Assembly (NCBI RefSeq): GCF_009469695.1
Contig: NZ_SSSR01000008.1
Span: 33,512-97,511, forward strand
Length of the DNA stretch: 64,000 bases
DNA from: Propionivibrio limicola
Lineage (GTDB): Bacteria > Pseudomonadota > Gammaproteobacteria > Burkholderiales > Rhodocyclaceae
Direction: 5' to 3'
Within the stretch, counting starts at the first letter, position 1. Each line of letters opens with the position of its first letter. The notes beneath the pieces are model-generated. The model worked only from the letters and a program-made list of their open reading frames with translations. It did not search any database and was not told the DNA's origin. The position numbers and the translations under genes were made by a program. This document shows positions 52,885-63,845 of this stretch, in pieces.

Positions 52885-53448
52885 TCAAGCGATAAAGGGC
52901 GTCTTTGTGAGAGCGGTTCGGTTGCTTGATGTGCTGAACGAAGCAATACAAACGCTTGCACTTCCCGCCAGGAAAGTCAGCAAAATCAGGAAAGACCAGT
53001 TTGCCAGTGACAGCCCGCCGATGACCAAATCCTTGCTGCCGCAAAAACCCGTGGCCATGAAAAAGAGCGGATAGATCTGGCCCAGCCAATCGATCAGCTT
53101 TTCGGTGAATCCTGTTTCCGCCAGCGAGCAAGTAAAGCCCGAGTCGGGAAACCATTGCATCCAACTCTGTTTTGCCGACACGATCAAGCCCCAGATGCAA
53201 AATGCGGCTGAGGCAGCCAGTGATGCGTATCGGAGGGCTGGTTTGTTCCAACTGGCAAAGGTCAGAAAGAAACAGCCTGCGATGACGAAATAGGCCAATC
53301 GCTGGAAGATGCACAGATGGCAGGCATCCAGATTCAGGAAGAAGGCGAGCCCGACGGCGATCAGGCCCAGCGAGAGGGCCGCTACGCCCATGGCCAGGGT
53401 GATGCAGCGCCCTTTATGGCAAAACATAGTTGTAACGTTATTCATCAC
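52885..53448 (-). CDS. dsbB: Disulfide bond formation protein B
   Basis: 187 residues with four membrane helices. The first redox pair is in the CHLC motif after helix one. The second is split, as in DsbB: one cysteine in GFTCSL and one in GFCGSKD, in the second periplasmic loop. It reoxidises DsbA and passes electrons to quinone. No dsbA is near. The last ~15 residues are a Ser/Thr-rich tail. Confidence 0.88.
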   Translation of the reverse strand: MMNNVTTMFCHKGRCITLAMGVAALSLGLIAVGLAFFLNLDACHLCIFQRLAYFVIAGCFFLTFASWNKPALRYASLAASAAFCIWGLIVSAKQSWMQWFPDSGFTCSLAETGFTEKLIDWLGQIYPLFFMATGFCGSKDLVIGGLSLANWSFLILLTFLAGSASVCIASFSTSSNRTALTKTPFIA

Positions 53449-53514
53449 TTTCCTCTGAAGACTTGCGAGGTCATCGAGTTTATCAGTGTGTCCGATCTGT
53501 TTTTGCCCTTCCGG

Positions 53515-53964
53515 CTATTTTTTGGCGCGAATGAAGCTGGCTTCGGCTATTGCCAATGGTTGACCGGCCGAGGTGAGTTCGGCATTGAGAAAATAGACGT
53601 GTCGCCGTTGACGGGTGAGCGTGGCCGTGATTTCCAGTTGCTCTGTGCATGGGACGGGTTCGAAGAAGCGCACTTTCAGCGAGGCTGTCATCGCCTCGAC
53701 CCCTTGCTGGAAAAGGCAATGCGTCATGGCCGCGTCGAGCAGAGTGCTTACCATCCCGCCATGTACTACGCCGGCGTACCCTTGCCACTGAGAGGATGCC
53801 TGAATCGTTGCCGCAACGGCGTTTTCCCCGGATGGCCGGAATTGCAGACCGAGCGATTGATTCAGACCGCACACCATGCATGAGTCGTGGCTCTTCGGTG
53901 GCGTGACTGGGTCGATTAACGTCATTCGGGCGGTGTTGTGCTTGTGAGACTGCGCGTTTTTCAA
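53515..53964 (-). CDS. PaaI-family hotdog thioesterase
   Basis: 149 residues of the hotdog fold. The catalytic region GVVHGGMVSTLLDAAMTHC and the N-terminal CMVCGLNQSLGLQFRP are characteristic. It should hydrolyse small or aromatic acyl-CoA esters. The start decides the length: TTG at 53964 has a good AGGAG seven bases upstream, whereas the ATG at 53925 has none, so the TTG is preferred. Confidence 0.8.
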   Translation of the reverse strand: MKNAQSHKHNTARMTLIDPVTPPKSHDSCMVCGLNQSLGLQFRPSGENAVAATIQASSQWQGYAGVVHGGMVSTLLDAAMTHCLFQQGVEAMTASLKVRFFEPVPCTEQLEITATLTRQRRHVYFLNAELTSAGQPLAIAEASFIRAKK

Positions 53965-53992
53965 ATCATCTCCTGTGGCTGAGTCCGATAGC

Positions 53993-54028
53993 GAAGAAAG
54001 GCATCCGGTAGCCGGATGCCTTTCTTTC
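53993..54028. terminator. Bidirectional terminator after the DUF5320 gene
   Basis: Stem gaaaggcatccgg/ccggatgcctttc with a three-base loop and T-rich flanks on both strands. It stands three bases from the DUF5320 stop. Confidence 0.8.
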
Positions 54029-54030
54029 GC

Positions 54031-54348
54031 TCATTTCCTCAACTGTTCTCTCAGATTGTTGATCTGCTGCTGCAGATCTTCGATCGCCGAATTGATCCAG
54101 TCGGTCGAGAACATGCCCATATTCTGGCGTTGGCCAGTAAGGCCGAGAAATCTGCCAAACATCCCCTGGCCTTGCGTGCGCCCTGCTCCGGAAAATTGCC
54201 CGCGTTGGCCAAGGCCGTTGCATTGGCCGGCACGCTGCCCTTGACCTCTGTTGCGTCCGGATGACATGCCGGATGCGTCGCGCAAGCAACGCCCTCTGCC
54301 GCCGCCCATTTTTTGTTGACCAAGACCTTGATTGTTAAAACGTGACAT
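54031..54348 (-). CDS. DUF5320-like small protein
   Basis: 105 residues. The first two thirds are rich in Gly, Gln and Arg with two cysteines (GRCLRDASG and GQCNGLG). The end is a short coiled coil (SAIEDLQQQINNLREQL). This plan matches DUF5320 proteins, which commonly stand beside NifX- and MinD-like genes, as here. It lies at the far end of that cluster with its own terminator. The start is MSRFNNQG at 54348. Function unknown. Confidence 0.7.
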   Translation of the reverse strand: MSRFNNQGLGQQKMGGGRGRCLRDASGMSSGRNRGQGQRAGQCNGLGQRGQFSGAGRTQGQGMFGRFLGLTGQRQNMGMFSTDWINSAIEDLQQQINNLREQLRK

Positions 54349-54455
54349 CGTGTGACTCCTTGAAAATTGCGGGAATATTCTCCCCACCTTGCTGATGCTC
54401 CGAGAGCAACCGGCAGGGCAGTAGAGAAAGCTGTTGCCGCGGATGGCGTCGGCGG

Positions 54456-54833
54456 CTATTTGACGAGAATTGCTTCTGCTTCGACCACGCCACCCTTAGG
54501 CAAGCCGGCCACCTGTACGGCGGCCCGAGCCGGGTAGGGTTCGTCGAAGTACTCGCCCATGATTTGATTGAAGCGGGCGAAATTGGCCATGTCGGTCAGG
54601 AAAACCCCAACACGAACGATGTTTTTCAGGTCGGCACCTGCCGCCTGGCAAACGGCGCGCAGATTGCGGAACGCCTGATGCGCCTGGGCGTCGAAGCCTT
54701 CAACCAGATTGCCGCTGGTCGGGTCGATGCCGAGTTGCCCGGAAAGAAAGACCAGGCTGCCCGCCTGCACGGCCTGCGAATAGGTGCCAACGGCCTGTGG
54801 CGCTTGTGTCGTGTGGATGATGGTGTGTTCCAT
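54456..54833 (-). CDS. ridA: RidA family protein
   Basis: 125 residues, full length. The trimer-site residues are in VFLSGQLGIDP, NLRAVCQAAGADLKNIVRVGV and the late RAAVQVAGLPKGGVVEAEAI, which includes the active arginine. RidA hydrolyses reactive enamine/imine intermediates from pyridoxal enzymes. It protects serine and threonine metabolism, which is of interest because serC and thrS lie 9 kb away. Confidence 0.92.
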   Translation of the reverse strand: MEHTIIHTTQAPQAVGTYSQAVQAGSLVFLSGQLGIDPTSGNLVEGFDAQAHQAFRNLRAVCQAAGADLKNIVRVGVFLTDMANFARFNQIMGEYFDEPYPARAAVQVAGLPKGGVVEAEAILVK

Positions 54834-54879
54834 GATGTGTTCCTTTTCTGAGTGAGCGAAACGAGTGCATGCCGGCTGA

Positions 54880-55824
54880 TCAGGTGGCGGTCTGCCGGCG
54901 CACGTAAAAGGTTTCGCCTGCGTATTCCACGGCCTTCAATTCACCGGCGGCCACCATTGCCTGCACCGTTGCCATCGTTCCGCCCGACTTCTCGGTCAGG
55001 CTCCTGAGAGCGGAGGCCCGCATCGGATGAACGGCGGTAACCGCCAGGATGTCGCGCCGCAAATCGCCGCTGAAAGCGAAGGAATCGCCCTCATAGGCTG
55101 AAAGAAGCTCTGTTTCCAGACCGGTTTCGACAAAAATCTGGTGAGCGCGAGTGATTGCCGTCTCATCGGGCACGCGCACATCGCGAACGGCCGGCGGGCG
55201 GTGCGGAATTGACAGGTAGGCACGGTGGATGCCCGCATTCCGCAGAAACCGGGCGGTGGGCCTGAGGACTTCCGGCCCGTCGTTGAATTCCGCCAGAAGC
55301 ATGGTTTCGCTGACCAGCATGCCCTGGAAGGTCCGCGCGAATATGGCGATACCCTCCAGAATCTCTGACAGTTTCAGGTCTGGATGGGGACGGTTGATCT
55401 GCCGCCATAGCGCTTCATCGACGCAGTCGACCTTGAGGCTGACCCAGTCGACCAGTTGCAAAGTTTCCCGTACGGTCGGCAATGAGATCAGCGAGGCATT
55501 GCTGATGATCGCAATGGGTACGCCAAGCGGACGCAAGGCTTCGATGGTACTGGCGAGATTGATATCCAGCGTCGGTTCGCCATCCGGAACGAACGTCAGG
55601 TAATCGACGGCTTCTCCATGCGCACGGACTGCCTCAAGCCGCTGGCTGACTTGTTCGGCAATCAGTGCCGGCGGCATAAAACAGCGCGGCGTGATTTCCT
55701 GAAGCGGTGTGGCACCGACCTGGCAATACACGCAGGAGTAGCTGCAATGCTTGGGGGGAATGTTGTTGATCCCCAGGCTGCGGCCGAGGCGGCGCGAGGG
55801 AACGGGGCCGAAGGCGATATCCAT
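54880..55824 (-). CDS. Radical SAM protein with C-terminal winged helix
   Basis: 314 residues. The start FGPVPSRRLGRSLGINNIPP leads into the cluster motif CSYSCVYCQ (CxxxCxxC). The barrel runs to about 230. The last ~70 residues (LRSLTEKSGGTMATVQAMVA) look like a winged-helix domain, as in a group often found near MinD/NifX clusters in anaerobes. The substrate is unknown. It lies upstream of ridA and 130 bases from the CoA-binding gene, with a hairpin in between. Confidence 0.85.
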   Translation of the reverse strand: MDIAFGPVPSRRLGRSLGINNIPPKHCSYSCVYCQVGATPLQEITPRCFMPPALIAEQVSQRLEAVRAHGEAVDYLTFVPDGEPTLDINLASTIEALRPLGVPIAIISNASLISLPTVRETLQLVDWVSLKVDCVDEALWRQINRPHPDLKLSEILEGIAIFARTFQGMLVSETMLLAEFNDGPEVLRPTARFLRNAGIHRAYLSIPHRPPAVRDVRVPDETAITRAHQIFVETGLETELLSAYEGDSFAFSGDLRRDILAVTAVHPMRASALRSLTEKSGGTMATVQAMVAAGELKAVEYAGETFYVRRQTAT

Positions 55825-55859
55825 GATATGTCAACCGTTGATTGCGCCGACGTCCGGCA

Positions 55860-55878
55860 GCACCCCGCGACGGGGTGC
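55860..55878. other. Hairpin between radical SAM and CoA-binding genes
   Basis: Perfect stem gcaccccg/cggggtgc with a three-base loop inside a 130-base gap. No T-run follows on the minus strand. It may separate two transcripts or mark a processing site. Confidence 0.45.
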
Positions 55879-55954
55879 GATTGCCGAAAGTCGCGCGGCC
55901 GATCGGGAGTAAATCGGCCTCACAGGATCGGGGGAGGGCATCGTTAATCGCCCT

Positions 55955-56326
55955 TCAGAACTGTCCGGTTCTCAGCATGACCAGCGTGCATGCCTCGATC
56001 GGTTCGATACCGGCGGCTTTCAGGCGATCGTATTCCGCCGGGTTTTCGGTGCCCGGGTTGAAAATGACGCGGGCCGGCTTGAGGGCGATCAGTTGTTCGA
56101 ACAGGCCGGTCTGCCGTTGCGGTCCGACGTAGAGGGTGACGGTGTCGACCTTTCCGGTGACCTCGGCGGCGCTGGCATAGGCTTTCTTTCCGAGCACGCT
56201 GTCAGTAGCCGGAGCGACCGGGATCGGCGTATGGCCGTACTCCTCGAGCATTTTCATCGCCTTGTTCGAGTAGCGCTCTTCGTTGTTGCTGGCGCCAATG
56301 ACCAGTACGTTTTGTGCGTTTTCCAT
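55955..56326 (-). CDS. CoA-binding domain protein (YccU-like)
   Basis: 123 residues of one Rossmann-like CoA-binding domain: VLVIGASNNEERYSNKAM at the start and VIFNPGTENPAEYDRLKAAG later, ending EACTLVMLRTGQF. Such stand-alone domains bind CoA or its esters and have no established reaction. It lies within the MinD/NifX gene series, 56 bases after the first NifX-like gene. Confidence 0.83.
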   Translation of the reverse strand: MENAQNVLVIGASNNEERYSNKAMKMLEEYGHTPIPVAPATDSVLGKKAYASAAEVTGKVDTVTLYVGPQRQTGLFEQLIALKPARVIFNPGTENPAEYDRLKAAGIEPIEACTLVMLRTGQF

Positions 56327-56382
56327 GGGGTCGCTCCTGTTGTTTTCCGGGATCGCCGGAGGGGTGGATGTATCGATATCGG

Positions 56383-56721
56383 TTAATGATCGCAGGCGTT
56401 GCCGCCAACGGTCAGCGTTCCCGCCAGAAAAGCACCGATCAGTTTTTCCGGCGTTTCGGCGGGAGCGCCTACGGTAACGCGGATGCCCTGTCCGGCGAAA
56501 AGTTCCTGCGCGCGCTGGCCCATACCGCCTGCCAGAATCTGGGTAACGCCGCGTTCGGCCAGCCACGGTGGCAGCAGGCCCGGTTGGTGCGGCGGCGCGG
56601 CAACGTCTTCGCGCTTGAGGATGGCGTTGGTGGCAGGATCGACATCGACGAGCGCAAACGTGGCGCAATGGCCGAAGTGAATGGCCAGCTTGCCTTCGGC
56701 GAGGGGAATGGCAAATCGCAT
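56383..56721 (-). CDS. NifX/NifB-type cofactor-binding protein
   Basis: 112 residues. The start MRFAIPLAEGKLAIHFGHC and the end GTLTVGGNACDH are hallmarks of the dinitrogenase iron-molybdenum cofactor (NifX/NifB C-terminal) fold, and GGMGQRAQELF is the central loop. There are no nitrogenase genes around; such stand-alone proteins include the orange protein of sulfate reducers. It probably binds or carries a metal cluster for the adjacent ATPases. Confidence 0.87.
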   Translation of the reverse strand: MRFAIPLAEGKLAIHFGHCATFALVDVDPATNAILKREDVAAPPHQPGLLPPWLAERGVTQILAGGMGQRAQELFAGQGIRVTVGAPAETPEKLIGAFLAGTLTVGGNACDH

Positions 56722-56749
56722 GGGGTGACTCCTTGTGTGATTGAAAAAG

Positions 56750-57625
56750 TTACTGCAAACCGAGGGCTGTCCAGACGGCGCGGATGTCTTCGGCGCACGG
56801 GGCATCGCTGTCGATGACGGCGCGCTCCTGAATCTGGGCCTGCGTGACGGAGGTGTCGTAGCGGATGCGGCCGGCGATCTGTGCGCCAGCTTTACGCGCC
56901 TTGGCTTCAATGCGTTCGCACATCGACGGATTGATGTCCCATTTGTTGACGCAGATCGAGGTCGGGATGCCGAAATGCGCGGTCAGGCCGAGCACGCGTT
57001 CCATGTCGTGTTCGCCGGAAACGCTCGGCTCGGTGACGACCAGTACATGCGAGGCGCCGGTGACCGAGGCAATGACCGGGCAGCCGATTCCCGGCGGGCC
57101 GTCGACGATGATGAGCGGATGGTTGCCCGCTTCGGCGAGGCGGCGCGCCTGCTGGCGCACAGTCGTGACGAGCTTGCCGGAGTTTTCGGCGGCAATCCCG
57201 AGGCGGGCATGCACCAGCGGGCCGCACGCCGTGTCGGAGATCATCCATTCGCCGCAACGGCGTTCCGGGAAATCGATGCTGTCCATCGGGCACGCTTCGA
57301 GACAGACGCCGCAGCCTTCGCAGGCGGTTGCATCGATCCAGTAGGTGTCGTGCCCGGCTTCGGGCGCCGGTTCCATGATGGCGTCGAATCGGCATTCGGG
57401 AAGGCAAACGCCGCAGTTGCAGCAGACTTCCGGCATGATTTGCGCCTCATGGCCACTGAAGAATTCGTGACGCTCCCGCAGCGTTGGCGCGAGGACGAGG
57501 TGCAGATCAGCGGCGTCGACGTCGCAATCGGCGATAACCGGCCGTTCGGCGAGCTTGGCAAACGAAGCCGTCAGGCTCGTTTTGCCGGTGCCGCCCTTGC
57601 CACTGAGTACGATCAGTTCCTTCAT
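56750..57625 (-). CDS. MinD-type ATPase with inserted ferredoxin domain (first copy)
   Basis: 291 residues. The deviant Walker A GKGGTGKTSL opens the protein. Two 4Fe-4S motifs are inserted after the first strands: CCNCGVCLPEC and CEGCGVCLEACP. The ATPase fold then resumes with DGPPGIGCPVIAS. Such proteins act as paired ATP-driven scaffolds for cluster assembly. The start overlaps the stop of the second copy by four bases. Identity with the second copy is limited, so the pair diverged long ago or has separate roles. Confidence 0.88.
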   Translation of the reverse strand: MKELIVLSGKGGTGKTSLTASFAKLAERPVIADCDVDAADLHLVLAPTLRERHEFFSGHEAQIMPEVCCNCGVCLPECRFDAIMEPAPEAGHDTYWIDATACEGCGVCLEACPMDSIDFPERRCGEWMISDTACGPLVHARLGIAAENSGKLVTTVRQQARRLAEAGNHPLIIVDGPPGIGCPVIASVTGASHVLVVTEPSVSGEHDMERVLGLTAHFGIPTSICVNKWDINPSMCERIEAKARKAGAQIAGRIRYDTSVTQAQIQERAVIDSDAPCAEDIRAVWTALGLQ

Positions 57626-58497
57626 CTTGCAACTCCTGCGCGGTACGGCATTCCCCGCTGTTTTGTGCTTTCGTTGTCGATGGCTTGCCACAGGCGCTCG
57701 AAATGCGACCGGTATTCGGGCAGCGCGTCGACGATCAATTCACCGCGCGAATAGGCTTCGGCAATCCGGCGGTCATCTGGAAGTTCAAGAAGGAGAGGGA
57801 TTCCCTCTGCTTCACAGTAGTGGCGCACGCGGTCATCGCCGATGCCGGCACGATTGATGACGACGCCGAAGGCCAGCTTCAGTTCGCGCACGGTGTCGAC
57901 CGCCAGCTTGAGGTCGTTCAGGCCGAAGGGCGTCGGCTCGGTGACGAGCACGGCAAAATCGGCGCCGCGCAGCGTGGCGACGGCCGGGCAGGCGGTGCCG
58001 GGCGGAGCATCGAGAATGGCGGTAGTACTTGGGTTGCGCCGCTCCTTGACGGCGTGGACCAGCGTCGAAGCCAGCGATACTCCGACATCGAGGCAACCGC
58101 TCTTGAGCGTGATCAAACCGGCCTGACGCGTTGTAACTGACCCAATGCGATAGCGCTCTTCGCGGATTGCATTGTTTGGGCAGACGAGCATGCAACCACC
58201 ACAGCCGTGACACAGCTCCGGAAAGAGCATGGGCGCCTTGCCGACGGAGGCCAGCGCATTGAACTGGCAAAATTCGACGCATTTGTTGCAGGCGTTGCAG
58301 CGTTCCGCGTCGATTTTGGGGACGCCGATGGTGATTTCCTCCTCGCTGCTCGGCGCAGCCGTCAGGAAAAGGTGGGCGTTCGGTTCCTCGACGTCGCAGT
58401 CGAGGAGCTGGATGGGCGCATCGAGTACGCGGGCCAGATTGACCGAAATGCTGGTCTTGCCCGTGCCGCCCTTGCCCGAAGCGACGGCGAGAATCAT
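57622..58497 (-). CDS. MinD-type ATPase with inserted ferredoxin domain (second copy)
   Basis: 291 residues, the same architecture: ASGKGGTGKTSISVNLARVL, clusters CNACNKCVEFC and CHGCGGCMLVCP, then DAPPGTACPAVATL and a VTEPTPFGLNDL switch region. It starts four bases inside the stop of the NifX-like gene upstream, so all three are one tightly coupled operon. The two ATPases probably form a heterodimer. Confidence 0.88.
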   Translation of the reverse strand: MILAVASGKGGTGKTSISVNLARVLDAPIQLLDCDVEEPNAHLFLTAAPSSEEEITIGVPKIDAERCNACNKCVEFCQFNALASVGKAPMLFPELCHGCGGCMLVCPNNAIREERYRIGSVTTRQAGLITLKSGCLDVGVSLASTLVHAVKERRNPSTTAILDAPPGTACPAVATLRGADFAVLVTEPTPFGLNDLKLAVDTVRELKLAFGVVINRAGIGDDRVRHYCEAEGIPLLLELPDDRRIAEAYSRGELIVDALPEYRSHFERLWQAIDNESTKQRGMPYRAGVAR

Positions 58498-58856
58498 ACC
58501 CAGTGCCCTTCAACGTTCGCTGCATTCGCTTCGGTCAATTCGCCAGCCTTGTAGCGAGCCAGCGCTTCGGCGATGGTCGGCACGTCGGTGTTGTACACCT
58601 TGACGCCAGCCGCTTCCAGCACCCGGAAGGCTTTCGGGCCGCAGTGCCCGGTAATCAGCGCCGCCGCGCCGGCCTTGGCGATCGTTTGCGCCGCCTGAAT
58701 TCCGGCGCCTTGAGCGGCGTTAAGATTCTGGGTGTTGCTGATGAGAGTGAAATCTTGTGTTTGCAGGTCATAAACGATGAAGTTTTTGGCTCGGCCAAAG
58801 CTCGGGTCAAGCGCCGCCGTCATGTCGTTTCCTGTCGTTGAGAAAGCCAGTTTCAT
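58494..58856 (-). CDS. NifX/NifB-type cofactor-binding protein (first gene of the cluster)
   Basis: 120 residues. The start MKLAFSTTGNDMTAALDPSFG and the later LITGHCGPKAFRVLEAAGVK belong to the same fold as the 112-residue protein, but the end differs (no C-terminal GGNACDH motif). It heads the minus-strand operon and lies 42 bases from the first of two palindromes. It probably binds a metal cluster or cofactor. Confidence 0.88.
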   Translation of the reverse strand: MKLAFSTTGNDMTAALDPSFGRAKNFIVYDLQTQDFTLISNTQNLNAAQGAGIQAAQTIAKAGAAALITGHCGPKAFRVLEAAGVKVYNTDVPTIAEALARYKAGELTEANAANVEGHWV

Positions 58857-58897
58857 TTGATTTCAAGCCTTTCCATGTGTGAATGCATGTTTAGATA

Positions 58898-58911
58898 TTG
58901 GCATACGCCAA
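58898..58911. promoter_or_regulatory. Palindromic site 1 between the NifX/MinD and thiG operons
   Basis: TTGGCATACGCCAA, a 14-base palindrome with one broken pair. It lies 42 bases from the NifX-like start codon. A near-identical site stands 67 bases away. Confidence 0.65.
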
Positions 58912-58964
58912 AAACTATAGCAAGAAATTATTGAGAATTTGATGCAATTGGGGGTGTTTTTTTA

Positions 58965-58978
58965 TTGGCATATGCCAT
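58965..58978. promoter_or_regulatory. Palindromic site 2 between the NifX/MinD and thiG operons
   Basis: TTGGCATATGCCAT, containing the perfect 12-base palindrome TGGCATATGCCA. It lies about 40 bases from the thiG start codon, mirroring site 1 on the other side. The pair is a strong candidate for one regulator acting on both operons. Confidence 0.7.
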
Positions 58979-59017
58979 AGTATGCACATTTCCAATCATT
59001 TCCTTTCAGGAGAAATC

Positions 59018-59806
59018 ATGTCTGATGTTTTCGCGATTGCTGGCAAAACCTACCGTTCACGCTTGCTGGTCGGCACCGGCAAGTACAAGGACTTCGCTGA
59101 AACGCGCGCCGCCATCGATGCCTCGGGCGCCGAAATCGTGACGGTCGCCATCCGCCGCGTGAACATCGGTCAGGAAGCCGGCAAGCCCAGCCTGCTCGAT
59201 TACCTGCCGCCTTCCGAATTCACCTACCTGCCGAACACCGCCGGCTGCTACACCGCCGACGACGCGATCCGCACGCTGCGCCTCGGACGCGAACTGCTCG
59301 ACGGCCACAAGCTTGTCAAACTCGAAGTGCTGGGCGACCCGAACACGCTCTATCCCAACGTGCGCGAGACGCTCAAGGCGGCCGAAGTGCTGGTCAAGGA
59401 AGGCTTCGACGTGATGGTTTACACCTCCGACGATCCCATCGTTGCCCGCGATCTTGAGCAGATTGGCTGCTGCGCGATCATGCCGCTCGCCTCGCTCATC
59501 GGCTCCGGCATGGGCATCCTCAATCCGTGGAACCTGCGCCTGATCATCGAGCAAAGCAAGGTGCCGGTTCTCGTCGATGCCGGTGTCGGCACGGCCTCCG
59601 ATGCAGCAGTTGGCATGGAACTCGGATGCGATGGCGTGCTGATGAACACCGCGATTGCCGCTGCCAAGGACCCGGTGCTGATGGCGACGGCGATGAAGTA
59701 CGCCGTTCAGGCCGGCCGCGCCGCTTACCTGGCGGGACGCATGCCGCGCAAGCTCTATTCTGCCGACCCGTCCAGCCCGGTCAGCGGGCTGATCGGGGCG
59801 AAATAA
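59018..59806 (+). CDS. thiG: Thiazole synthase
   Basis: 262 residues, a full TIM barrel. The catalytic lysine lies in [16 protein letters not shown], with [12 protein letters not shown] at the start and [20 protein letters not shown] for phosphate binding. It makes the thiamin thiazole from deoxyxylulose phosphate, dehydroglycine and ThiS-borne sulfur. No thiS, thiF or glycine/tyrosine enzyme is adjacent, although thiE-thiM lie 15 kb away. The ATG at 59018 with AGGAGA is the clear start; an upstream ATG at 58982 would overlap the operator. It is first in a plus-strand operon with thrS nine bases behind. Confidence 0.93.
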
Positions 59807-59815
59807 GGAAACGCC

Positions 59816-61726
59816 ATGCCCGTGATTACCTTACCCGACGGGGCGCAGCGCGCTTTTGCGGCCCCGGTCAGTGCCCTCGACGTCGCGCGTGACATCAGCG
59901 CCGGATTGGCGCGCAATGCGCTGGCGGCACGCATCGACGACCGCCTGTGTGACCTCTCCACCGTCATCGAATCCGACGCGCGCGTGGCACTGATCACCGA
60001 GCGCGATCCCGAAGGGTTCGACCTCATGCGCCATTCGTGCGCGCACCTGATGGCGATGGCCGTCAAACAGCTCTACCCGGACGCGCAAGTCACCATCGGC
60101 CCGACGATCGAGGACGGCTTCTACTACGACTTCGCCTATTCGCGCCCGTTCACTCCGGAGGATCTCTCGCAGATCGAAGAACGGATGCGCGAGCTGGCGC
60201 GTGCCGACATTCCGCTGGAACGCAGCGAAGTGCCGCGCGAGGAAGCGATCCGCCTGTTCGAATCGCTGGGCGAAACGTACAAGTGCGAGATCATCCGCGA
60301 CCTGCCGGCCGACGCCGTCGTCTCGCTCTACCGCCAGGGCGATTTCGTCGACCTCTGTCGCGGCCCGCACGTGCCGTCGACCGGCAAGCTCAAGGCCTTC
60401 AAGCTGATGAAGGTGGCCGGCGCCTACTGGCGTGGCGACTCGAAGAACGCGATGCTGCAGCGCATCTACGGCACCTGTTGGGCGGACGAGAAGAGCCTCA
60501 AGGCCTACCTCACCCGCTTGGAGGAAGCGGCCAAGCGCGATCACCGCAAGCTCGGGACGCAGCTCGACCTGTTCCACTTCGACGAGTGCGCGCCCGGTTC
60601 GGTATTCTGGCACAGCAAGGGCTGGACGCTGTTCCAGCAGCTCATCGCCTACATGCGCCAGCGCCAGTTCGACGCTGGCTACGAGGAAGTGAATACGCCG
60701 GACGTGATGGATCGCTCGCTGTGGGAGCTTTCCGGCCACTGGGCCAACTACCGCGACCACATGTTCACTACCGAGACCGAGGACGGCCGCACCTTTGCCT
60801 TGAAGCCGATGAACTGTCCGGGCGGTGTGGCCATCTTCGCCAACGGCCTGAAGAGCTACCGCGACCTGCCGATCCGCATGGCCGAGTTCGGCAAGGTGCA
60901 TCGCTACGAGCCGTCGGGCGCGCTGCACGGGCTGATGCGCGTGCGCCATTTCACGCAGGACGACGCGCATATCTTCTGTACTCCGGCGCAGATGCAGGGC
61001 GAGTGCGAAACGGTGATCCGGCTGATCCTCGACATCTATCGCGATTTTGGCTTTGACGAAGTAGCGATCAAGCTGTCAACGCGCCCGGCCAACCGCATCG
61101 GCAGCGACGAAACCTGGGATCTGCTCGAACATGCCTTGTCGTCATCGCTCGACGCCATGGGGCTGGCCTATACGACCAATCCGGGCGAGGGCGCCTTCTA
61201 CGGCCCGAAGCTCGAATTCGTGCTGCGCGACGCCATCGGCCGCGACTGGCAGTGCGGCACACTGCAGGTCGACCTGAACCTGCCCGAACGCTTCGACATC
61301 GGCTACATCAACGAAGCCGGCGAACGTGTGCGGCCGGTGATGTTGCACCGCGCCTTGTTCGGTTCGCTGGAACGCTTTACCGGCATCCTGATCGAGCACT
61401 ACGCCGGCACCTTCCCGGCCTGGCTGGCGCCGGTGCAGGCCGTTGCGTTCGGCATCACCGACGCGCAGTCCGATTACGTGAAAGAGGTCGTGGCCGCGCT
61501 GAAGAAGGCAGGCGTGCGCGCCGTCACCGATCTGCGCAACGAAAAAGTCGGCTACAAGGTACGCGAACACACGATGCAGCGCGTTCCCTATCTGCTCGTT
61601 GCCGGCGAGCGCGAAAAGGCCGAAGGCAAGGTGGCCGTGCGCGACGTCGCTGGCAAGGACCTCGGTGCCATGACGCCGGAGCAGATCGTCGGGCTGATGC
61701 AACGTGCAGCGCCGGAACGGGATTGA
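59816..61726 (+). CDS. thrS: Threonyl-tRNA synthetase
   Basis: 636 residues with the full domain order: TGS (about 1-60), editing domain with [16 protein letters not shown], class II core and an anticodon domain. Zinc ligands are seen in KPMNCPGG, in [15 protein letters not shown] and in the C-terminal core histidine [12 protein letters not shown]. The usual PGH after MNC reads PGG here. It is not followed by infC-rpmI-rplT as in most Proteobacteria, but by an ABC exporter one base away. It could be the sole enzyme or a second, divergent copy. Confidence 0.93.
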
Positions 61727-61727
61727 A

Positions 61728-62708
61728 ATGAGCGCGGACATGGCTTTTGCCATCGAGGTGCGCGGCCTCGCCAAGCGATTTGGCGAGGTGGCGGCAGTAC
61801 GGCAGGTCGACTTTGCCGTACGCCCCGGCGAACTTTTCGGCTTCCTCGGCCCGAACGGCGCTGGCAAGACCACGACGATCAATATGCTCACCGGACTCGC
61901 CCGTCCGGACGCAGGCAGCATTTTCATCGGCGGCATCGATTGCGTGAAACAGCCACGCGCCGCGCAACATCTGATTGGCGTGGTGCCGGATGAGAGCAAT
62001 CTCTATCCGGAACTATCCGGCTTCGAGAATCTGTGTTTCTGCGCCGCGCTTTACGGTATCGGCAAGGAAGAGCGCCAGCGGCGGGCCCGCGAGCTGCTCG
62101 ACGCCTTCGATCTGACGGCGGCGGCCAACCGCAAGTTCGGCACCTACTCGAAGGGGATGAAACGGCGGTTGACTATCGCCGCCGGCATCATTCACCGGCC
62201 GCAAATCCTGTTTCTCGACGAGCCGACCACAGGCATCGACGTCGCCAGCGCGCGGCAGTTGCGCATGCTGATTGGCGGCTTGCGGCGGGACGGCATCACC
62301 GTCTTCATGACGACGCACTACATTGAAGAAGCCGAGCGGCTGTGCGACCGGATCGCGTTCATCGTCGACGGGCGCATCGTTTGCCTCGACTCGGTTGAAA
62401 ATCTGTTGCAGCCGGTACAGAACAAGCATCTTCTGCAGATCGCCTGCGAAACCTTCCCCGGCTTGCCGCAGGAGTTGGCGGCGGCCTTCCCGGACCTCTC
62501 CTTTTCGACGGAAGGCAATGACCGGCTGCGCGTCGAAGCTGACGGGCCAATCCGCGTCGGCCCGCTGGTACGTTTTCTCGAAGAGCGACAGATCGAAGTC
62601 TCGGAGGCAAGAAGAATCCGCCCGACGCTGGAGGACGTCTTCGTGCAGGTCACCGGCATCGGCATCAACAGCATGCGCAAAGAAAAAACCGGAGGGGGCA
62701 GATCATGA
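61728..62708 (+). CDS. ABC transporter ATPase (DrrA-like)
   Basis: 326 residues. Walker A LGPNGAGKTTTINML, signature TYSKGMKRRLTIAAGI and Walker B ILFLDEPTTGIDVAS lie in the first 220 residues, and a C-terminal extension of about 100 follows, the layout of DrrA-type drug or polyketide exporters. The ATG at 61728 comes one base after the thrS stop, so the genes are surely cotranscribed. It pairs with the permease downstream. Confidence 0.9.
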   Translation: MSADMAFAIEVRGLAKRFGEVAAVRQVDFAVRPGELFGFLGPNGAGKTTTINMLTGLARPDAGSIFIGGIDCVKQPRAAQHLIGVVPDESNLYPELSGFENLCFCAALYGIGKEERQRRARELLDAFDLTAAANRKFGTYSKGMKRRLTIAAGIIHRPQILFLDEPTTGIDVASARQLRMLIGGLRRDGITVFMTTHYIEEAERLCDRIAFIVDGRIVCLDSVENLLQPVQNKHLLQIACETFPGLPQELAAAFPDLSFSTEGNDRLRVEADGPIRVGPLVRFLEERQIEVSEARRIRPTLEDVFVQVTGIGINSMRKEKTGGGRS

Positions 62709-63442
62709 AATGGGCGATAGCCATCTGGGCCATCCTGTGCAAGGACATGCGCACCTATTATCTGAAACCACCGAATGTCAGCTGGGGCATCATTTTCCCG
62801 CTGGCCTGGACAGGGATGTTCTTCATCAAATCCGCCGGCGAGGTAGGCAGCATCGCCAGTCTGCTGCCGGGTGTTGTTGCGGTATCGATCCTGTTCGGCA
62901 CCACCTCGATGCTCGCCGTCACAGTTACTTTCGAGAAGAAAAGCCGCTCGTTCGAGCGCCTGCTGCTCGCGCCGCTGCCGTTCGAGCTGCTGATGCTGGC
63001 CAAGACCGGCGGCGCCATCCTGTTCGGCGTGGCCAACGCCTTCGTGCCGGTCATCATGGCGGCATTTCTGATCGACCTCGGCGGAATCGTCTGGAGCATC
63101 TTCATCCCGGCTGTGGTGCTGGTGGCGCTCGCTTCAACTTTCCTCGGCCTGTTCATTGCCGTGGCGGTCAGCGAAGTATTCGAGGCGCAAACGTTCTCGA
63201 ATTTCTTCCGCTTTCCGATGATGTTTCTTTGTGGCCTTTTCTTCCCGGTCGAACAGCTGCCATCGCTGTTGAAGCCGCTGGCCTACGCACTGCCGCTCAC
63301 TTATGGCGCCGACGCACTGCACGGTGCCGTGCGGGGCGCGCACAACCTGCCGTTCGCGGTTGATCTTGCCGTACTCGTATTGTTCTGCGCCGGGTTGTTT
63401 GCCTTGAGTCTCTGGAACATACGGCGGAACTGGATTCTCTGA
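62705..63442 (+). CDS. ABC-2 transporter permease (DrrB-like)
   Basis: 245 residues with six membrane helices and the ABC-2 pattern, including FEKKSRSFERLLLAPLP in the cytoplasmic loop and a late FFRFPMMFLCGLFFPVEQLP. It overlaps the ATPase gene by four bases. Together they resemble antibiotic or lipid exporters; the substrate is unknown. Confidence 0.88.
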   Translation: MKWAIAIWAILCKDMRTYYLKPPNVSWGIIFPLAWTGMFFIKSAGEVGSIASLLPGVVAVSILFGTTSMLAVTVTFEKKSRSFERLLLAPLPFELLMLAKTGGAILFGVANAFVPVIMAAFLIDLGGIVWSIFIPAVVLVALASTFLGLFIAVAVSEVFEAQTFSNFFRFPMMFLCGLFFPVEQLPSLLKPLAYALPLTYGADALHGAVRGAHNLPFAVDLAVLVLFCAGLFALSLWNIRRNWIL

Positions 63443-63488: not shown

Positions 63489-63845
63489 ATGGGCCGCCCG
63501 ATAAAGTGCCGGAAAGTTTGCTGCCAGATTGCCGCCGTCTGCTTCAAACCGCAGTGTGCTTCGGTAAAGAACCTCGATGAAGTCGTCCTCGGGCTCGACG
63601 AAATCGAGGCTATTCGGCTGGCCGACTTCGAAGGGCTGTATCAGGCGGATGCCGCCGCGTGCATGGGCATCGCACGGCAGACCTTCGGAAAAATCATCGC
63701 TCAGGCACACAAGAAAGTGGCGACGGCGCTGATTGGCGGCAAGGTGCTGAGGATTGCGCCCAATGTAAAGACACTCGCCACGGCCTCAGACCGTGAAAAC
63801 CCGCCTGAATCCGAAACTGACCTCCACGAAAGGGAAACCGCATGA
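63489..63845 (+). CDS. DUF134 (UPF0251) DNA-binding protein
   Basis: 118 residues. A cysteine-bearing start ([17 protein letters not shown]) is followed by a sigma-70 region 4-like helix-turn-helix ([20 protein letters not shown], then [15 protein letters not shown]). DUF134 genes are usually found next to NifX- and MinD-like genes, which lie 5 kb away here. The cysteines may hold an iron-sulfur cluster, making it a redox or metal sensor. AGGAG stands before the ATG. It overlaps serC by four bases. Confidence 0.87.

Follow-up and report, generated by a model that had tools for sequence, protein, structure and literature searches.

Gene organization of the locus

The window analyzed here, a 64,000-nucleotide stretch of the Propionivibrio limicola contig NZ_SSSR01000008.1 that ends where the contig (C55) ends, carries a set of NifX-type and MinD-type genes, two palindromes, and a gene encoding a protein of the DUF134 family. 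On the minus strand, the set starts with NifX1 (58494–58856; PF02579), which resembles the orange protein (ORP), and continues with MinD1 (57622–58497), a MinD-type ATPase with an inserted 2×4Fe-4S ferredoxin domain, MinD2 (56750–57625), a second ferredoxin-inserted MinD-type ATPase, and NifX2 (56383–56721), which is similar to the C-terminal (Di-Nase) domain of MrpORP. NifX1 was assigned from Pfam and its PDB relative, and the other three from Pfam, NCBIfam, and alignments. A preceding sequence-only reading had described the three core genes as overlapping by four bases, and ATGA overlaps do occur between NifX1 and MinD1 (58494–58497) and between MinD1 and MinD2 (57622–57625). In five congeners, approximately 0.5 kb separates NifX1 from MinD1.

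A divergent series on the plus strand begins with thiG (59018–59806) and includes a second threonyl-tRNA synthetase (ThrRS) gene (59816–61726), an ABC transporter ATPase (61704–62708), and an ABC-2-type permease (62705–63442), the latter two recognized by eye from their open reading frames (ORFs). It ends with the predicted regulator, the DUF134 protein (63489–63845), which scored 70.3 bits against PF02001, above the curated cut-off of 27. Between the two series lie two unstranded predicted operators: palindrome A (58898–58911; TTGGCATACGCCAA), 41 bp before the start of NifX1, and palindrome B (58965–58978; TTGGCATATGCCAT), 39 bp before the start of thiG.

Core proteins and the orange protein set

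The ORP carries a bound S2MoS2CuS2MoS2 cluster. As judged from sequence, the core of this locus is a known kind of gene set, because the nearest solved relative of NifX1 is the Desulfovibrio gigas ORP (2wfb; E = 7.3e-21 over residues 2–110), the ferredoxin cysteines are invariant, and MinD2 accompanies MinD1. All eight ferredoxin cysteines of MinD1, which form two 4Fe-4S motifs, were invariant in 87 of 87 sequences, and the eight of MinD2 were kept in 81–83 of 83 sequences, so that the conservation in orthologues on which the sequence-only reading had staked its proposal is borne out. A further cysteine, seven residues past the switch-II aspartate (C170 and C182), was invariant in all 87 MinD1 and all 83 MinD2 sequences. 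NifX2 (112 amino acids) scored 120.5 bits against positions 265–365 of the MrpORP profile NF041136, that is, against the C-terminal domain only; it stands alone, falls below the curated cut-off of 450 bits, and lacks the Mrp/NBP35–Di-Nase fusion that defines the family. Its motifs HFGHC (15–19), H45, and CDH (110–112) were kept in 94%–100% of 34 sequences scoring >95 bits, and CXHFGHCE and CDH motifs are named as likely cluster ligands in PMC6345978.

The same source describes the ORP complex of Desulfovibrio vulgaris (Orp3, 4, 5, 8, and 9), and its regulation is treated in PMC3897727 and PMC4641369. The likeness to this complex claimed by the sequence-only reading holds at the sequence level: in addition to the matches of NifX1 to 2wfb and of NifX2 to MrpORP, the window encodes a MinD pair with two 4Fe-4S motifs each, as described for Orp3 and Orp4, and an Orp8-type NifX-fold protein. 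Features common to the window and the Desulfovibrio complex are a pair of ferredoxin-type MinD ATPases, an ORP-like NifX accompanied by a further NifX-fold (Di-Nase) protein, and a divergent operon arrangement in which palindromic regulator sites occupy the space between the operons. However, NifX2 has no fused Mrp domain, no Orp5 was recognized, and DUF134 stands where the ORP complex has a neighboring sigma54 activator of the DVU2106 type; a Pfam scan of ten window proteins revealed no such activator. The window also adds radical SAM, CoA-binding, RidA, and hotdog proteins and the second ThrRS. The MinD proteins share the deviant Walker A motif (GKGGTGK) with the dimeric cluster carriers of the NifH/Nbp35 type, and also, by motif only, the invariant cysteine described above, seven residues past the switch-II aspartate, but differ in their extra ferredoxin domains. 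When a MinD protein was compared with NifH of the same genome, hhalign spanned only 42 P-loop columns, and MAFFT left the switch-II cysteines unaligned.

One alternative is that the cluster serves the organism's own nitrogenase, with its NifX-type proteins handling FeMo-co. NifX-type carriers are known to serve FeMo-co synthesis, and the genome does contain nif genes: the earlier statement that no nitrogenase gene is present is true of the window only, because contig C11 (L032, L033, and L034) carries nifHDK and further nif-like genes. Three of the seven PF02579 matches in the whole genome lie on C11 near the nifH, nifD, and nifK-like ORFs, which were identified by eye. However, the nif genes are on a different contig from the cluster, the sole palindrome-like place on C11 within two mismatches (C11:307213) is far from them, and NifX1 scored only 23 bits against the nitrogenase NifX family TIGR02663, whose equivalog cut-off is 112 bits. 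Furthermore, the MinD pair was found in six of 40 kin genomes, all six belonging to one genus, of which 24 genomes were sampled. On the basis of the NifX cut-off, the separate contig of the nif genes, and the patchy occurrence of the MinD pair in the genus, we rejected a nitrogenase role, which we regard as most improbable.

Palindromes in the genome and genus

The two palindromes (TTGGCRTATGCCAA) precede NifX1 and the divergent thiG–thrS–ABC–DUF134 series by approximately 40 bp each. Every one of the six cluster genomes has such a pair in the region separating NifX1 from the divergent series, with a spacing of 67–68 bp in five and 44 bp in one. The short core of the palindromes, GGCRTAYGCC, occurs twice in the window, which was reached in two of 100 shuffles. 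The P. limicola genome contains 34 places within two mismatches of the palindrome, of which those with a symmetric GCATATGC core, four in number, were studied singly. These four precede thiG in the window, a second DUF134 gene with a double-NifX gene (DUF134b–NifXX; C32), an MBL-fold hydrolase gene (C43), and an IscA-type gene with a rhodanese (C1), at 39–56 bp from the start codons as we placed them. In two congeners (G009 and G021), a site also occurs before a disulfide reductase–rhodanese gene.

The location of these sites is more telling than their number. Counts of a strict pattern per genome were low and overlapping (0–5 in DUF134-positive and 0–3 in DUF134-negative genomes), so that only site location is informative, and a degenerate pattern was dropped because it was too loose to split the two groups. 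In a set of 80 distant MinD loci (the best 80 of 306 confirmed loci from GTDB genomes, with flanks of up to 10 kb), GCATATGC was unranked in a test of 8-mer palindrome enrichment (18 observed vs. 15.8 expected), which places the signal of this core in its position and not its abundance.

In the genus, the palindrome-marked genes comprise the NifX/MinD set, the double NifX with a Cys/His-rich linker, the MBL-fold hydrolase, IscA–rhodanese, the second ThrRS, and, in congeners, the disulfide reductase–rhodanese. This gene content suggests that the putative regulon responds to metal–sulfur shortage or sulfide stress. It also bears on the alternative that the set works in cell division as an ORP complex, the role proposed in D. 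vulgaris. The proteins resemble the ORP set, and PMC6345978 gives the ORP proteins of D. vulgaris a putative part in cell division. However, the window lacks an MrpORP fusion, and the marked genes handle sulfur, Fe-S, and tRNA-Thr, not division. An identity with the septum-site MinD was rejected, since MinD2 scored 48 bits against TIGR01968 (cut-off, 212.9 bits) and this family was absent from the best 25 of the 65 families matched by MinD1. A role in cell division is quite improbable.

The double-NifX protein (L030 6875–7798, on C32), which is encoded behind the second DUF134 gene and its palindrome, has a long linker extremely rich in Cys, His, and Gly between its two NifX domains. A membrane protein (L029 10313–11533) with no Pfam match has an N-terminal thioredoxin-like CPHC stretch, and its relatives adjoin DUF134 in G002 and G023. 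The thiG gene is intact in the window, but the congener G021 has a shortened remnant of it (L092 6764–6988) in the space from the palindromes to the second ThrRS gene.

Link between DUF134 and the palindrome

DUF134 (PF02001) is entered in Pfam as a family of unknown function, and no regulatory role or DNA site was reported for it in the literature searched, which covered few subscription journals. In the kin sample, DUF134 occurred in all six MinD-positive genomes but only three of the 34 MinD-negative genomes (p = 2e-5, uncorrected for kinship). Among 398 Pseudomonadota genomes, PF02001 was matched at E ≤ 0.001 in 53 and above the cut-off in 14, of which nine (E < 1e-14) were treated as carrying DUF134; the other five (G324, G237, G254, G326, and G400) were dropped because they scored 27–29 bits with longer proteins and part of the profile. 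In seven of the eight strong-DUF134 Pseudomonadota genomes other than that of P. limicola, the core GC[AG]TA[TC]GC was located 20–62 bp ahead of the DUF134 gene or its NifX neighbor. All seven have an adjacent PF02579 gene, and their 94 kb of sequence contain 11 cores, nine of which are at DUF134 or NifX.

Because sites in the 80 MinD loci were used to compose the motif, the Desulfobacterota served as an independent test. Upstream of DUF134 genes in this phylum, TTATGGGCATATGCCCATAA was matched at 14, 15, and 16 of its 20 positions in 17, 16, and 13 of 29 cases, respectively, and one match was perfect. With 500 shuffled palindromes and the same 29 genes, the means were 0.21, 0.05, and 0.01, and the maxima were 8, 4, and 2. 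The start codons of these genes were picked by rule and some are uncertain; another choice of starts gave 16, 14, and 11 of 29. A further 20 genomes yielded 10, 9, and 7 of 26 loci at 14, 15, and 16 positions, although these genomes were picked for DUF134, the site, or spread and form a biased sample. In the 80 MinD loci themselves, 12 sites were found at ≥16 positions (0–2 in 20 shuffled controls) and 63 at ≥14 (12–51 in the controls), but these counts are no independent test because the motif was composed from those loci. The Desulfobacterota shuffle test and the core placement in the Pseudomonadota loci, and in the plasmid loci described below, led us to reject the palindromes as chance repeats.

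DUF134 and NifX are fused into one 257-residue protein in Pusillibacter faecalis (plasmid L392 4995–5768), with a variant site, GACATATGCC, upstream. This fusion protein has weak Pfam matches to Sigma70_r4. A structure model of DUF134 built from 47 sequences (pLDDT 84.6) fitted mostly region 4 structures of sigma factors, the best six at 0.5–0.9 Å over 45–47 columns, so DUF134 is modeled as a helix-turn-helix (HTH) protein similar to sigma region 4. A sequence search identified no solved relative.

Several observations weigh against the explanation favored below, in which the set handles a metal–sulfur cluster and DUF134 regulates it through this palindrome. G066, the other Pseudomonadota genome with a MinD pair, has no palindrome site at its locus, and none of nine archaeal DUF134 loci matched at 14 of the 20 positions. 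In the Desulfobacterota, MinD1 was not clearly associated with DUF134, occurring in 25 of 34 DUF134-positive and 50 of 84 DUF134-negative genomes (p = 0.21). The site scan around MinD1 in this phylum, which covered all 25 of the DUF134-positive and 35 of the 50 DUF134-negative MinD1 genomes, detected sites at ≥16 positions in four of 25 and none of 35 loci (p = 0.026), with three of these sites ahead of a DUF134 gene, and sites at ≥15 positions in five of 25 and two of 35 loci (p = 0.12). No Foldseek E-value below 0.001 was obtained for the DUF134 model, no cysteine of NifX1 reached 85% conservation in the alignment, and a promoter scan of 53400–59300 found no sigma-70-like site. A universal association of DUF134 with MinD was rejected, since it fails in the Desulfobacterota. 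Because both the association and the MinD1 sites in that phylum are weak, we predict that the common targets of DUF134 are its own gene and a NifX gene, and that control of the MinD pair by DUF134 is a trait of this lineage.

Two of the archaeal DUF134 loci (L243 and L246) have TTATGCATTATAATGCATAA-like palindromes, in which the arms are alike and the center is different.

A mobile DUF134–NifX module

A module composed of DUF134, NifX, and a PaaI thioesterase is mobile, occurring on plasmids of Klebsiella, Citrobacter, Enterobacter, Raoultella, and Escherichia coli (L385 6001–7355 and others), where it is annotated without a function. We read six of the 15 plasmid loci listed (of 181 records), one locus from each of two further searches, and the fusion. 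The palindrome preceded DUF134 (seven loci) or NifX (one locus) in all eight plasmid or E. coli loci and was double in seven of them, and 15 of the 18 GCATATGC cores in their 109.5 kb were at DUF134 or NifX. As some of them are close copies of a single module, the eight loci represent fewer independent cases. The module was matched in 171 plasmid records (153 at ≥99%) and 23 of 5,426 E. coli genomes.

The companions of DUF134–NifX on the plasmids form variable sets, drawn from the PaaI (hotdog) thioesterase, a SLAC1 channel, a disulfide reductase–rhodanese, a TauE exporter, Dps, and TrmO. The plasmid hotdog, SLAC1, and reductase genes are related to genes of the P. limicola genome. Since the plasmid module lives in E. 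coli, the predicted role of DUF134 is testable in that host.

Second threonyl-tRNA synthetase and other tRNA-Thr genes

Among the 16 genomes searched, the second ThrRS was confined to the six cluster genomes, with 81%–92% identity between the window and the five congeners. Each of the ten cluster-negative congeners had a single ThrRS, the housekeeping copy, which was 58%–61% identical to that of the window; both copies were present in five of the six cluster genomes, and the sixth (G015) is 70% complete. The second ThrRS keeps Cys 334, which is common to all 19 sequences and presumably a zinc ligand, and shows another five fixed cysteines. Zur-type metal regulons likewise combine a paralogous ThrRS retaining its zinc-site cysteine with metal-linked control, but the operator in the window appears to differ from the Zur box. 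ThrRS paralogues that conserve the zinc-binding residues have been reported from Zur regulons (PMC2770081), as has thrS2 (PMC6103462).

These parallels raise the alternative that the palindrome belongs to another regulator (a metal sensor, or a CRP-like protein such as that encoded on C43), with DUF134 as no more than a member of its regulon. The known membership of paralogous ThrRS in Zur regulons is consistent with this, as are the CRP-type genes located within the C43 sulfur locus and after the ThrRS gene in G021. However, the palindrome is found ahead of the DUF134 gene in several phyla as well as on plasmids, the sole constant neighbor in the gammaproteobacterial and plasmid loci is NifX rather than another regulator (no search was aimed at Zur or CRP genes), and one species has a DUF134–NifX fusion. 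We therefore consider another regulator unlikely and DUF134 the better candidate for binding the palindrome.

In the congener locus L094, the only one of the five NifX1–MinD1 gaps that was scanned, a TrmO gene (PF01980; 8497–8997) lies inside the gap. A TrmO gene with a site of its own was also observed in the module of a Dongshaea plasmid (L384 8973–9446), and a TsaC-type t6A gene stands beside DUF134–NifX in Salinivibrio (L391 9001–11507). The combination of tRNA-Thr genes with sulfur genes suggests a program for metal–sulfur shortage.

Predicted function of the set and its regulator

On balance, we favor a reading in which the orange-protein-type set assembles or unloads a metal–sulfur cluster and both palindromes are operators of the DUF134 protein encoded at 63489–63845, as predicted from sequence comparisons. 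The MinD1–MinD2 pair may act as an ATP- and electron-driven clamp, in which four ferredoxin clusters would feed electrons and the invariant cysteine near switch II of each subunit would face the partner. Through this clamp, NifX1 and NifX2 could be loaded with, or stripped of, a Mo/Cu/Fe-sulfide unit. A DUF134 dimer is predicted to bind the palindrome approximately 40 bp before the start codons, probably as a repressor, a role suggested by the position of the sites since the promoter scan identified no sigma-70-like site. A NifX protein, encoded beside DUF134 in many cases and joined to it in a single species, is predicted to report the presence of the cofactor to DUF134.

With about even odds, this proposal extends to the whole family: DUF134 may constitute an unrecognized, widespread family of regulators of metal–sulfur cofactors, with a sigma-4-like HTH that binds TTATNGGCATATGCCNATAA and a fused or adjacent NifX as the cofactor-sensing half. 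In such a scheme, DUF134 would govern the orange-protein machinery in some anaerobes, DUF134–NifX–thioesterase would be a compact module that travels on enterobacterial plasmids, and the tRNA-Thr genes would point to a step in translation that breaks down once the metal–sulfur supply fails, because the modules repeatedly carry tRNA-Thr functions (ThrRS, TrmO, and the TsaC-type protein).

What is new at this locus is the upstream signal, that is, the palindromes and the company of DUF134, whereas the core was already known in kind. The predicted operator bears on the poorly understood role of the ORP set of sulfate reducers and of the many MinD-ferredoxin/NifX clusters in anaerobes. With its near-constant position, the operator offers a direct handle, since it marks the genes that the cell wants together, and as a predicted DUF134 site it makes the roles of both DUF134 and the orange-protein set testable. 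The sequence-only reading was partly supported in its interpretation; the operators, DUF134, the second ThrRS, the wider regulon, and the nitrogenase genes of the genome had escaped it.

Distribution of the set and its accessory genes

The neighborhood extends well beyond one genome, as the proposal of the sequence-only reading required: it was kept in the six genomes of the genus, and MinD2 accompanied MinD1 in 77 of the 80 distant loci, which cover bacteria and archaea. NifX1-like proteins occurred in 69 of these loci and NifX2-like proteins in 52. The MinD1 and MinD2 distances were correlated (Mantel r = 0.46 in 83 loci; the highest of 999 permutations was 0.18). MinD1 (E ≤ 1e-40) was found in only two of the 398 sampled Pseudomonadota genomes, P. 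limicola and G066, vs. 75 of 118 Desulfobacterota genomes. In quick trees of both MinD1 and MinD2, the six genus clusters grouped as one set (SH-aLRT 100), and this topology fits one acquisition in the genus followed by losses.

The partners encoded in the 80 loci were DUF5320 (28 loci), a NifU-N scaffold (23), DUF134 (15, or 18 by phmmer), a sigma54 activator (15), MBL (15), radical SAM (14), ARMT1-like (14), TrmO (three), and CoA-binding (one) proteins. DUF134 and the sigma54 activator occurred together in one locus and alone in 14 each, as if they were alternative regulators, but their exclusion was not significant in these loci (p = 0.28).

In the window, the minus-strand series continues beyond NifX2 with genes for a CoA-binding protein (PF13380, CoA_binding_2; 55955–56326), a radical SAM protein (PF04055; 54880–55824), a RidA-type protein (TIGR00004; Pfam and NCBIfam; 54456–54833), and a Gly/Arg-rich protein with a C-terminal coiled coil (54031–54348). 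Pfam and NCBIfam searches thereby reproduced the gene content originally reported for a single series, including two PF02579 proteins and two ferredoxin MinDs. The series is longer than first described, however, and runs on to a hotdog thioesterase (PF03061; 53515–53964). The label DUF5320 given to the Gly/Arg-rich protein found no Pfam match in the protein itself even at E = 10, but it is plausible because its equivalents in congeners match PF17253 (2.9e-11 in L094; 2.6e-4 in L091, which is below the cut-off) and such proteins occur near the MinD pair in 28 of the 80 distant loci.

Radical SAM and CoA-binding proteins had been proposed as extra parts of the machinery. The former is a recurrent partner across phyla, sharing the MinD strand in all 14 of the distant loci that encode it, but was present in only two of the six genus clusters; the winged helix attributed to it was undetected by Pfam, and it scored 43.2 bits against the prokaryotic viperin family NF038283, whose cut-off is 180 bits. 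Conversely, the CoA-binding protein was present in four of the six genus clusters but in a single distant locus. RidA occurred in five of the six. Relatives of the window's hotdog thioesterase adjoin DUF134 in other genomes and on plasmids.

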